NCBI RefSeq assembly: GCF_016863135.1
Contig: NZ_BOOH01000074.1
Coordinates: 1 to 44,727 of the forward strand
Direction of reading: 5' to 3'
Source of the DNA: Planobispora longispora
GTDB taxonomy: Bacteria > Actinomycetota > Actinomycetes > Streptosporangiales > Streptosporangiaceae
Length of the DNA stretch: 44,727 bases
Numbering within the stretch: the first letter of the stretch is position 1; every line of letters begins with the position of its first letter. Positions 32,176-34,593 of this stretch are shown one piece after another. The notes under the pieces are model-generated. The model was not told the DNA's origin, made no database searches, and was given only the letters and a program-made list of their open reading frames with translations. A program made the translations under genes and the position numbers.

Positions 32176-33948
32176 TCAGTAGATGATGAGCACGGGCCTC
32201 TCGGTGATCTGGACAGGGTCCCCCGGCCGGACCGAGACGCTGGATCCATCGAGGTGCCTCACGCTTCGAGCCCCGGGGGCGGCCACGGAAGCCGTCCCCG
32301 TGACTGTCCACCGCAGGACGGCCTCATGCGCACCGCGCGATCCGGTGAGGGTGAGCTCGCACTGCCAGACGTTTGCCGGCAACGCGATGGCCAGACCCTG
32401 CCCGCAGGAGCGGAGGCGGGTGTGGGCAAGCCAGCGCTGCAACTGCTCGACGGCCAAGGCGGCCCTGGTCGGGGCGCCGCCCTCAGCCTGCAGCACGATG
32501 GGCAGGGAACTGCCGCCCCAGTTATAGAAATACATGCGCTCCAGCTTGAAATCGGCGGCGTACAGGCCCAGCAGGTAGAAGCGCACCGCGTAGTCGGTGG
32601 CTCGCCGCTCATCCAGTGAGCCCTGCAGCGGGATGTCATAGGTCGTCCCGGTATTCCACAACGGCGGATGCACGCCGATCCGATGGAAAACCCGGTCGAT
32701 CAGGACCAGAAGCTCCAGCATCGTCTCAGGCGGATCCGCGGCGCGGCGCTGGTGCAGCTTGATGCCCGCGACATCGCAGTGCCGGTAGCCGCCCAACTCG
32801 GCGAAGCGTTCCAGGACCCGCCGGGCAGCCGGTTCCCACAGCCGTCCCATGCCCGGGCACACGACGATGGCGCGCGGATCGGCACGCCGGATAATCCGGG
32901 AGGCGCGGCGCGTCATCTCCACCAAGACGGTGACGTCACCGGTGAAGAACCGCTCGTCGTTGCCCATCACCCAGAGTTCGTAGGCCTCAAGGCGCCCCCG
33001 GTAGCGAGTGACCAGCGCGCGCACCAGCGCCTCCCAATCGGCGAGGTCCTCGGGCGGCCCAGCTCGGGACTGGTCGCCGTAGGGGGTGAGCGGGGCCTGC
33101 GGCGCCGCCCACGAGGGGGTCCCGCCCAAGACGAACAGAGCGGGCAATCTGGCCCGCTCGGCACCGGCCACCAGACGATCCAGCGTGCTCCAGTCGTACT
33201 CTCCCCGGCGCGGCTCGAGTGACGCCCAGCGCGTCCCGCTGTCCCAGAACCGGACAGCGCCGACCTGGAAGGCGGGCATCGTGCCCGTATTGGAGTTGAT
33301 GGTGACGCCGAACATCTCACGGCGCACCGGCATGGGCGCCCGCACCCAACTGGGGCCGGAGATCCACTGCCCCGCCCGCATGATCTCTGCGCGCGGCGCC
33401 GTCCTCGCCGGGGTGGCCGCGCTTCCCGCCATCCCGGCGAGGAGGGCGAGCGCGGCGAGGACGCCGGCAAGACGCATCCCCTGCGACCGGCCCACCGCAG
33501 CACCACCTGATCGGCCGCGGACAGGTTCCGGAAGGGGGATGGGCGCTGGAGGGCGCGGCCTCGGGTCGGGCGGTCTCGGGATCGTCGAGCACGAGACCGG
33601 CGGCTCCTGAGCCGCCTTCCTGACAGCCGGCGGCGCGGAGCGGGCATGGAGATCCCGAGAAAGCGCGGGGGGCTCGCCCTGCGCGCCCTCAGCCGCCTCG
33701 CCGACGGCGCATGTCGCCGCCGACCAGGCACGCAGTACTTGCTCCAGCTCCCGGCTCCCGGCCCCGCACTCCCTGGCGATGCGCATCACCACCCCGATGT
33801 CGGAGGGCAGGCTCTTGCCGTTGCAGTAGCGGTGCAGGGTCGACCGGCTGACGAACGACACCACGGCCAGGTCCTCGTAGCTACGTCCGCTACGTTCCTT
33901 CAGCCTCCGCAGCAGGAAGGAGAAGTCGCGCTCTTCTCGCTCGCCCAC
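32176..33948 (-). CDS. Membrane-spanning HTH protein with GH39-like pseudo-glycosidase domain
   Basis: A 590-residue fusion. Residues 9-73 are an XRE-type helix-turn-helix (VSFVSRSTLHRYCNGKSLPS is the recognition region). A Pro-rich linker (about 75-150) leads to one membrane helix at 159-176, so the remainder should be extracellular. Residues 195-500 follow GH39-like (clan GH-A) TIM barrels of actinomycetes: RWASLEPRRGEYDW, LFVLGGTPSWAA, YRGRLEAYELW. The acid/base site, normally ELWNEPN, reads ELWVMGN (324-330) and the nucleophile site, normally LWNTE, reads LWNTGTTY (430-437). Both catalytic Glu residues are gone. A beta domain with two Cys (C515, C530) ends the protein. GTG 33948 has GAGGAGG before it. 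Confidence 0.85.
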   Translation of the reverse strand: MGEREERDFSFLLRRLKERSGRSYEDLAVVSFVSRSTLHRYCNGKSLPSDIGVVMRIARECGAGSRELEQVLRAWSAATCAVGEAAEGAQGEPPALSRDLHARSAPPAVRKAAQEPPVSCSTIPRPPDPRPRPPAPIPLPEPVRGRSGGAAVGRSQGMRLAGVLAALALLAGMAGSAATPARTAPRAEIMRAGQWISGPSWVRAPMPVRREMFGVTINSNTGTMPAFQVGAVRFWDSGTRWASLEPRRGEYDWSTLDRLVAGAERARLPALFVLGGTPSWAAPQAPLTPYGDQSRAGPPEDLADWEALVRALVTRYRGRLEAYELWVMGNDERFFTGDVTVLVEMTRRASRIIRRADPRAIVVCPGMGRLWEPAARRVLERFAELGGYRHCDVAGIKLHQRRAADPPETMLELLVLIDRVFHRIGVHPPLWNTGTTYDIPLQGSLDERRATDYAVRFYLLGLYAADFKLERMYFYNWGGSSLPIVLQAEGGAPTRAALAVEQLQRWLAHTRLRSCGQGLAIALPANVWQCELTLTGSRGAHEAVLRWTVTGTASVAAPGARSVRHLDGSSVSVRPGDPVQITERPVLIIY

Positions 33949-34170
33949 CGAGCCTCCTCAGCGCTCCAGTCTTGACAGTGAAGGCTGCCAGATATCGCGC
34001 CGAAGGATCTCAAATCCTCCCAAACAGGGGATGAACTCGCAGGCCAGAACGGGCTTCCGCATCTCACGCATCCCGTTTCGCGCCGCCCCCCTTGGCAGGA
34101 GAGCGGCTCCGCGGCAACAGTTCAACCCGGCCAGTCATCCACAATCGCACCGACTTTTCAGGAGGCACTC

Positions 34171-34593
34171 ATGCCGCTCGTCCGACGCCGGACCACCGCG
34201 GTTCTCGCCGGGCTCTTCCTCGCCCTTCCCACGCTCGCGCTCACCGGCCCGTCCGCCCTCGCCGACACCAACTGCGGTAGCTGGCCCGGTAACGGGATCG
34301 CCCACCACGACGTCAAGACGCGCACGATCACCCATGGCGGCCGGACGGTGAAAGTCGCTCTGGTCAACCAGCGGCTGAGCGACCACTCCTTCGCGGCCGT
34401 GCGAAGCGGCTACCGCTCCGGCGACCAGACATGGGTCGACCGCTCCTACGACGGCGGCTCCACCTGGACCCAGTGCGGCCCGTTCAACTCGAAGTTCTCC
34501 AACGACCTGAACAACTACCGCAACAGCATGCGCGCATGCGTGCGCTTCAACGGGGAGAGCTTCTGCACCGGTTGGTACTACGACGAGGGCTGA
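34171..34593 (+). CDS. Small secreted four-cysteine protein
   Basis: A 140-residue precursor. A clear Sec signal peptide (MPLVRRRTTAVLAGLFLALP..., cleavage after the ALA at 29-31) yields a mature protein of about 109 residues beginning DTNCGSW. Four Cys (the first at residue 35, the others near the C-terminus) suggest two disulfides. WVDRSYDGGSTW resembles beta-rich tail segments in secreted actinomycete proteins, but I cannot name a family. AGGAGG lies nine bases before the ATG. It is divergent from the membrane-spanning HTH/pseudo-glycosidase gene across 222 bp, which makes it a candidate target or partner. It has no catalytic motif I can see. Confidence 0.85.
   Translation: MPLVRRRTTAVLAGLFLALPTLALTGPSALADTNCGSWPGNGIAHHDVKTRTITHGGRTVKVALVNQRLSDHSFAAVRSGYRSGDQTWVDRSYDGGSTWTQCGPFNSKFSNDLNNYRNSMRACVRFNGESFCTGWYYDEG

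Follow-up and report, generated by a model that had tools for sequence, protein, structure and literature searches.

A probable transmembrane one-component regulator of Planobispora longispora whose PslG/GH39-like ectodomain has lost both catalytic glutamates

Introduction

Why a helix-turn-helix (HTH) domain and a glycosidase-like barrel share one polypeptide, and what the barrel may do after the loss of both its catalytic Glu residues, is the question raised by a gene of the actinobacterium Planobispora longispora, located on contig NZ_BOOH01000074.1 (assembly GCF_016863135.1, positions 1 to 44,727; this whole stretch of 44,727 nucleotides is referred to as the window). As an answer, the encoded protein, here termed the sensor, is suggested to be a transmembrane one-component regulator, a reading regarded as probable: its dead PslG/GH39-like barrel would sense a ligand, its HTH would bind a composite operator, and a small secreted protein encoded alongside (the partner) would most likely be activated. 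A previous sequence-only reading had placed the HTH inside, a single helix in the membrane and a dead barrel outside; this part stands, including the fusion, which proved to be conserved, while the partner, the element, the promoter geometry and the wider family described below were absent from it.

Results

Architecture and distribution of the sensor

Up to an E value of 1, the sensor N-terminus matches only HTH_31, HTH_3, Xre-like-HTH and HTH_26 in Pfam, HTH_31 being matched at residues 9-68 with E 3.2e-10. The AlphaFold2 model of the full-length protein places the HTH helices within residues 9-88, followed by a low-confidence linker (89-157), a helix (160-173), a second low-confidence stretch (175-201) and the barrel, which when modelled in isolation reached a mean pLDDT of 92.6; as modelled, the linker between HTH and membrane helix is disordered or flexible. 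Kyte-Doolittle hydropathy peaks at 1.97 over 19 residues from residue 160, and the 35 intact relatives possess maxima of 1.54-2.90 between HTH and barrel. The earlier claim that one frame, which is located on the minus strand, joins an HTH, a single membrane helix and a GH39-like barrel was thus borne out by Pfam, hydropathy and structure prediction, and the sensor is predicted to combine a DNA-binding domain, a presumably uncleaved membrane helix and an extracytoplasmic domain in one chain, its topology being inferred from sequence. Visual inspection showed an inverted repeat close to the start of the sensor gene in the window and in L003; a search for exact palindromes common to the regions upstream of the sensors showed no enrichment as compared to an in-gene control.

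Relatives were collected with exact short peptides of the query from one genome per species, an approach which reaches close relatives only. The 39 loci obtained are all actinobacterial by their record titles, and 35 of them combine the HTH, the hydrophobic segment and the barrel within a single frame, the four loci dropped from the alignments being L026 (no HTH in frame), L038 (split frame) and the fragments L039 and L041. The frame is thus real and the fusion far beyond chance; in the family search which the sequence-only reading had asked for, both Glu are missing in all relatives aligned. The sensor is sparse, as 5 of 394 sampled genomes of the class, including that of the window, yielded a match at E<=1e-80, one of these five being partial with an internal stop. 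When the HTH alone served as query, no second member was found in the window's own genome; among eight other genomes queried in this way, one possesses six members at E<1e-20. A scan of viral contigs returned no relative. No paper on this fusion, the element or the pairing was found in searches of an open-access library, an absence which is weak as most subscription papers were not covered.

Loss of both catalytic glutamates

The outer domain shares with the GH39/PslG glycosidases the clan GH-A barrel followed by a C-terminal beta domain, its sequence identity to PslG being 19%. Within the profile alignment to PslG, WVLAND falls on WNEPN and WNTGT on WSTEW. The residues that define the enzymes, i.e., the acid/base Glu after strand 4 (WNE) and the nucleophile Glu after strand 7 (TE), were found in none of the 36 aligned barrels (the window's and 35 relatives): the acid/base column holds no Glu (0/36), and the nucleophile position is occupied by Thr-Gly-Thr throughout (36/36), with T433, G434 and T435 invariant. 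Both motifs, ELWVMGN and LWNTG, and the replacement of both Glu with retention of the fold, as claimed earlier, were thereby confirmed, the loss of both Glu extending to the whole aligned set. The Frankia barrel fragment L039 reads LWNTDT, with Asp for Gly at the nucleophile position. Invariant residues favour the former catalytic face, as they occupy 24 of 64 positions after strand C-ends versus 10 of 61 before strand N-ends, a pattern expected of a ligand cleft that was retained without the chemistry, whereby the identity of the ligand is not implied.

Among glycosidases outside the fusion, five keep the acid/base Glu (L046, L115, L116, L125, L126); the nucleophile Glu was seen in L046, L116 and L126 and was not located in L115 and L125. 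One of them is a paralogue within the genome of the window (L002/L046, G000:C55:16182-16910), an 888-residue PslG/GH39-like protein with both Glu intact (WELWNEFD and LWNTEG), which may represent the type from which the dead barrel descended. WNEPD was read in two glycosidases of the same genus, VTEG being seen in one of them, and plasmid-borne glycosidases with Glu come from Deinococcus (WNEPN) and Eleftheria (WNEPD, LWNTEG). As the glycosidases outside the fusion keep their catalytic Glu wherever these could be read, the loss belongs to the fused clade.

The small secreted partner

Partners were chosen by eye, one per locus, from the output of a home-made signal-peptide filter that had no control of its own. 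On this basis, a small protein with a signal-peptide-like N-terminus is encoded near the sensor in 27 of 35 relatives (26 within 430 bp, L028 at 1.1 kb), either divergently upstream, downstream or, in L023, upstream and co-directional. Planomonospora, which is the nearest relative, retains a window-type partner remnant of 44 residues at this place (E 2.3e-4). The partners make up several families. Invariant in A3, which with 23 rows is the commonest set, are only the start Met and a D-x-D motif, Cys, Gly and Trp being nearly so, and the window-type partner shares a GDxxWxDxS...CG...RAC pattern with L011, L012 and L014. None of five partners tested matched a Pfam family above cut-off; up to E 1, the window partner gave BNR_2 at E 0.027 only, which is below cut-off, and the four from other loci gave no match.

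The coherence of A3 was assessed by a jackknife, each profile being built without the partner itself and without sequences at least 40% identical to it. By this procedure 16 of 23 partners were recovered at E<1e-3, and outside the 23 loci only L018, itself a sensor locus, was matched, none of six control stretches giving a match. The misses (L017, L032, L008, L010, L022 and L033, with L028 recovered only at E 0.005) imply that the partners are several families and that the D-x-D column of A3 may in part be an alignment effect. Across 30 whole sensor-holding genomes the A3 profile gave 0 to 4 matches each and 39 in total, 23 of which are training rows; of the other 16, L068 adjoins a second sensor copy, L069 lies about 2 kb from a sensor, three adjoin HTH-nSTAND1 genes (one truncated) and 11 lie elsewhere. 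A paralogue 41% identical to the window partner (L044/L045, G000:C1:150976-151407) has neither an HTH-membrane protein gene as neighbour nor the element.

Some further pairings were observed. The commonest secreted type adjoins HTH-nSTAND1 genes in L058, L061 and L064 with 0 or 1 element site, so that a separate though related kind of pairing may exist here; the genes of L061 and L064 carry WD40 repeats, with a possible membrane helix, as judged by eye, between NTPase and repeats. In two Amycolatopsis sensor loci (L088, L092) the divergent gene is regulator-like rather than secreted, the element lying in between; the L092 product has sub-threshold C-terminal HTH matches and is one we take to be ArsR-like, and L088 is alike by eye. 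On an Amycolatopsis plasmid (L123, 2309-2578) a barrel sensor is divergent from a protein annotated as peptidase inhibitor family I36, a further exported partner type.

A conserved operator-like element

When k-mers in the 420 bp upstream of 20 representative sensors were compared without bias with the rest of the loci, GGGACG ranked first, with 43 occurrences versus 11.2 expected; 15 of the 20 loci contain it, and p is 3.5e-13, uncorrected for the 2048 tests. All 11 non-divergent partners and 16 of 17 divergent ones have two or more GGGAYG sites in the 350 bp preceding them, versus 10 of 67 control genes from the same loci and 16 of 67 from the window's genome. The count for divergent partners is not independent, as it overlaps the region in which the motif was discovered; promoters of non-divergent partners lie outside that region, and their count is hence an independent test that the motif follows the partner. 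Of 14 partner-type genes away from the training set, four have at least two sites (L059, L067, L068, L069) and ten have none or one.

From 32 partner promoters, 28 were given a hand-picked anchor (L005, L015, L059 and L068 being left out) and 26 entered the sequence-only element model R1 (L007 and L020 also being left out). On the partner strand the consensus of these 26 rows, which has few gaps and rests on anchors set by eye, reads GCGTCCCA, about 19 bp, GCAGGTCAGA, about 10 bp, and CGTCCCAGCGTCCCA. Spacings of 8 bp and 42 bp between CRTCCC copies are the commonest, occurring in 10 of 35 loci each, 42 bp corresponding to four helical turns. As the anchors were picked by eye, the training alignment leans towards the pattern; evidence independent of them comes from the non-divergent partners, the promoter spacing counts, the hold-out model and the matches outside the training set. 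The window holds a degenerate yet complete copy. The hold-out model R2, trained without the window, matches 34018-34075 with 21.6 bits (E 4e-5), the only significant match in 196 kb, as the next one has an E value of 0.12. The region 33949-34170, which the sequence-only reading had proposed as the DNA to be tested for HTH binding, does therefore contain a conserved operator-like element.

Promoter geometry

A TTG starts 22 or 23 bp after the start of CRTCCC in 15 of 35 partner promoters (11 at 23, 4 at 22), the mean for any offset being 1.37 loci. These 15 promoters all carry NANNNT after the -35 hexamer, at a spacing of 18 bp (12) or 17 bp (3), while at 14 other spacers tested this pattern occurs once in all (at 11); it was set after the promoters had been viewed, and two of the 15 (L025, L029) are near-copies. 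None of the 15 -10-like hexamers starts with T. The partner promoter is accordingly read from its sequence as putatively sigma-70-type with a poor -10, the predicted regulator site lying directly upstream of the -35. A site in this position is the usual geometry of an activator, and as the operator would be located just upstream of a -35/-10 promoter, the sensor most likely activates its small secreted neighbour.

Element matches beyond the training set

Run on 31 sensor genomes, R1 gave 31 matches at E<1e-5, of which 23 are training rows. Of the eight others, one falls on the partner promoter of L015, three lie at sensor starts (L036, L018 and the second copy in the L020 genome), and one each precedes a secreted protein similar at its start to the L014 partner (L087), an exported-looking GH25 lysozyme with peptidoglycan-binding domains (L089) and a 358-residue frame without Pfam match (L090), the last being L091. 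Of the R1 matches, strong and weak, 20 places were read: eight adjoin an HTH gene of this type (L088, L092, L093, L094, L099, L102, L104, L106), seven precede an exported-looking protein, an HTH gene of this kind not being seen there (L087, L089, L097, L098, L100, L101, L105), and three lie inside coding sequence (L095, L096, L103), L090 and L091 making up the rest. Counted as chance were L096, L103 and L121, located in one kind of coding sequence which we take for an AA10-type enzyme, and L095, in a 785-residue frame; L091 is unclear.

The sensors of L030 and L021 lack a neighbouring partner, and in both genomes a copy of the window-type partner elsewhere bears the element (L074, E 3.8e-5; L075, E 9.3e-5 in 50 kb). 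Copies of this type in L045, of the window's own genome, and in L076 have no element at the gene; hence not every partner paralogue is a target. Of 41 relatives, nine gave a match at E<=0.002 and two at E<1e-5, namely the genome of the window, which belongs to the training rows, and a single genome related at class level, in which the match (L119) lies between an HTH_31 gene with another ectodomain instead of the barrel, its membrane segment being judged by eye, and a divergent lipoprotein-like gene. The one further match read among these relatives lies inside coding sequence. In three plasmid loci new to the analysis, the best match is found just upstream of the HTH gene (L122, 1.3e-6; L123, 7.6e-4; L124, 0.0054), that of L124 being at noise level as L126, a glycosidase locus without HTH gene, scores alike (0.0049). 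No divergent secreted gene was seen in L122. Its barrel has no Glu at either catalytic site and that of L123 none at the acid/base site, the nucleophile site of the latter not being seen. Among four HTH proteins of one Streptomyces (L108-L111), no match at promoter position was obtained for L108, L109 and L110, and L111 gave a weak one (E 9.9e-4 in 50 kb), which may sit just upstream of the true start.

Swapped ectodomains

Four of the eight element loci adjoining an HTH gene possess other ectodomains. The divergent gene of L094 encodes an M23 peptidase according to Pfam, and that of L102 looks alike by eye; in L102 the membrane segment stayed below the threshold used. The ectodomain of L099 has PG_binding_1 and a lysozyme-like match just below cut-off, its divergent gene encoding an exported-looking protein, and the divergent gene of L104 is lipoprotein-like. 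L112 encodes an HTH-membrane protein that resembles the window sensor to a meaningful extent only within the HTH (39% over 90 residues), and its divergent protein is 78% identical to the window partner over 135 residues; CATCCC-type copies were seen by eye between these genes, the model score being only 8.1 bits. L112 therefore indicates that HTH, element and partner can persist while the outer domain changes. By eye, the HTH proteins of L104, L107, L109, L110, L111, L119 and L124 have a common ectodomain around WYLELxWSSEGRTGT...PFRTTG; a Pfam scan of L104, L111 and L119 gave no match beyond the HTH.

Taken together, a new modular actinobacterial family of transmembrane one-component regulators appears rather likely, in which HTH type and composite operator would be kept and ectodomains swapped (dead PslG-like glycosidase; peptidoglycan-binding plus lysozyme-like; others without Pfam match), each member controlling an exported protein, i.e., a small secreted protein, M23 peptidase, GH25 lysozyme or lipoprotein, in some cases in trans.

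Table 1. Positions of the sensor, its partner and the predicted regulatory features within the window
Feature	Position	Strand	Remarks
Sensor/regulator gene	32176..33948	minus	590 aa, GTG start, stop codon included; 35 intact relatives
Ribosome-binding site GAGGAGG of the sensor gene	33953..33959	minus	read directly; 4 nt upstream of GTG
Predicted cytoplasmic HTH domain, residues 9-88	33685..33924	minus	HTH_31 type; Pfam and structure model
Predicted membrane helix, residues 160-173 in the model	33430..33471	minus	hydropathy and AlphaFold2 model
Predicted extracytoplasmic PslG/GH39-like barrel and C-terminal beta domain, residues 202-590	32179..33345	minus	
ELWVMGN, residues 324-330, acid/base Glu site lost	32959..32979	minus	sequence, alignment
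LWNTG, residues 430-434, nucleophile Glu site lost	32647..32661	minus	sequence, alignment
Operator-like composite element	34016..34079	plus	CCTCCCA (34016), GCAGGCCAGA (34039), CATCTCA (34060), CATCCC (34069)
-35-like TTGGCA of the partner promoter	34092..34097	plus	23 bp after the start of the proximal CATCCC (34069)
-10-like AACAGT	34116..34121	plus	18-bp spacer
Partner gene	34171..34593	plus	140-aa protein with signal-peptide-like N-terminus; divergent from the sensor

Discussion

Proposed mechanism and rival explanations

The suggested mechanism assumes that the outer barrel descended from a PslG/GH39-like glycosidase, having lost both catalytic Glu, and that the old active-site cleft would bind an extracellular ligand, most likely a polysaccharide of the cell envelope or matrix. 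Considering the peptidoglycan-binding-type ectodomain of L099 and the predicted targets M23 (L094) and GH25 (L089), an envelope polymer would be the likeliest class of signal. The signal would cross the membrane via the single helix and the flexible linker, whereby the oligomeric state or the position of the HTH changes. The HTH_31 domain would then bind the composite operator, in which CRTCCC repeats, spaced by about four helical turns, surround a TCAGA-like core, binding to these phased sites being cooperative, and the small secreted protein encoded beside the sensor would be the activated target.

Several alternatives share part of this evidence. The barrel's ligand might be the secreted partner itself, or a complex of both, rather than a glycan, thus forming a secreted feedback loop; the pairing of the genes in many lineages, with several unrelated partner types, would suit such a loop, yet the same barrel pairs with unrelated types, some element-bearing partners are encoded elsewhere in the genome, and the closely similar partner of L112 adjoins a sensor whose match to that of the window is limited to the HTH, so that this idea is considered rather unlikely. 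Less probable still is that the HTH represses the partner through the same operator until the ectodomain is engaged: a membrane-bound HTH protein could block a promoter, and at divergent loci no more than about 100-200 bp separate the element from the start of the sensor itself, making autorepression of the sensor possible, but in the 15 of 35 partner promoters with fixed spacing the element ends upstream of the -35-like TTG, and the lack of an initial T in all their -10-like hexamers fits an activator-dependent promoter better.

The HTH of RodZ binds MreB. As such domains in membrane proteins can contact components of the cytoskeleton, the sensor HTH might likewise be a protein-interaction module, the CRTCCC/TCAGA element then belonging to another, more widespread regulator. 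This appears improbable, since the element tracks the HTH type, occurring beside HTH genes with other ectodomains and including the blind match in the class-level relative, which next to the window genome is the only one of 41 relatives to reach E<1e-5, and since partner-type genes beside HTH-nSTAND1 genes have at most one site. A residual glycosidase with relocated catalytic residues, the fusion to the HTH being incidental, could account for the conserved cleft and for the invariance of E324. In the comparison with PslG-like barrels, a check named earlier, fold and motif positions agree, and E324 precedes the Trp of the WNE motif by two residues, a position held by Gln in PslG and, in the intact glycosidase relatives, by a Glu next to the catalytic one; it is therefore not the acid/base, and with Gly at the nucleophile position of all 36 barrels this explanation is very hard to sustain.

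Several observations weigh against the regulator proposed here. The window has only two GGGAYG sites, a number also reached by 16 of the 67 control genes taken from this genome, and R1 gives 23.5 bits inside a coding sequence of the same genome (G000:C35) as compared to the 21.6 bits of the window element in the hold-out; hence the case for the window is carried by position and geometry, and genome-wide lists include false matches at that level. The exact -35 spacing is missing from 20 of 35 partner promoters, and an adjacent secreted partner is absent from six of 35 sensors (L006, L021, L030, L031, L036, L037), only a remnant in L003 and about 2 kb away in L018. Relative G043 has the sensor yet no element match at E<=0.002. 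Finally, the membrane segment of the window sensor is Ala/Gly-rich and followed by a possible signal-peptidase-like site, as seen by eye.

Relation to known systems

Regulators of the ToxR/CadC type combine a cytoplasmic DNA-binding domain, a single membrane helix and an extracytoplasmic sensor. The likeness to ToxR/CadC or RodZ drawn earlier is kept as regards the inside-helix-outside plan, which the sensor shares with ToxR, and given up as regards membership in either family: the Pfam matches of its N-terminus up to E 1 include no OmpR/PhoB-type winged helix (Trans_reg_C), and neither the RodZ-type HTH nor the RodZ C-terminal domain is among the five Pfam models matched up to E 1. Unlike ToxR/CadC, the sensor has HTH_31, is actinobacterial, carries a pseudo-glycosidase as ectodomain and is paired with secreted proteins. 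With PslG of Pseudomonas aeruginosa and GH39 it has in common the barrel fold, the C-terminal beta domain and the motif positions, whereas the replacement of both Glu and the addition of HTH and membrane helix set the fused clade apart. The HTH-nSTAND1-WD40 proteins of L061 and L064 resemble it in having an HTH, a possible membrane helix and a repeat domain and in adjoining the commonest secreted partner type, but differ in architecture, weak HTH similarity (E 1e-6 and 9e-4) and lack of a GGGAYG site at the secreted neighbour.

The ectodomains of RsgI anti-sigma factors are glycoside hydrolase or carbohydrate-binding domains. RsgI proteins of Clostridium thermocellum are membrane proteins that signal polysaccharides to transcription (PMC12203970, PMC4711584); they act via a sigma factor and proteolysis, whereas the sensor has a predicted DNA-binding inner domain itself. 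Instead of an N-terminal anti-sigma domain, HTH_31 was found; a SigI gene was not searched for. The XRE-DUF397 pairs of Streptomyces consist of an XRE-type regulator and a small protein (PMC10364602, PMC6262351) and are alike in being actinobacterial regulators of this type with a small-protein partner, but here the partner is exported and unrelated by Pfam (no DUF397 in the window partner up to E 1), and the sensor spans the membrane and carries a barrel.

Significance

Signalling across the membrane of filamentous actinobacteria is known above all from two-component systems, ECF sigma factors and Ser/Thr kinases. A family acting directly from membrane to DNA, with predicted operator, promoter and named target gene, would add a further signalling route in actinobacteria and offer a handle on small secreted proteins such as the five for which no Pfam family was matched above cut-off. 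If the regulator reading holds true, the sensor would clearly exemplify the recruitment of a glycosidase fold as a receptor once both of its catalytic acids were lost, and, for the family as a whole, dead cell-wall or matrix enzymes would have turned into sensors which report envelope polymers straight to DNA.
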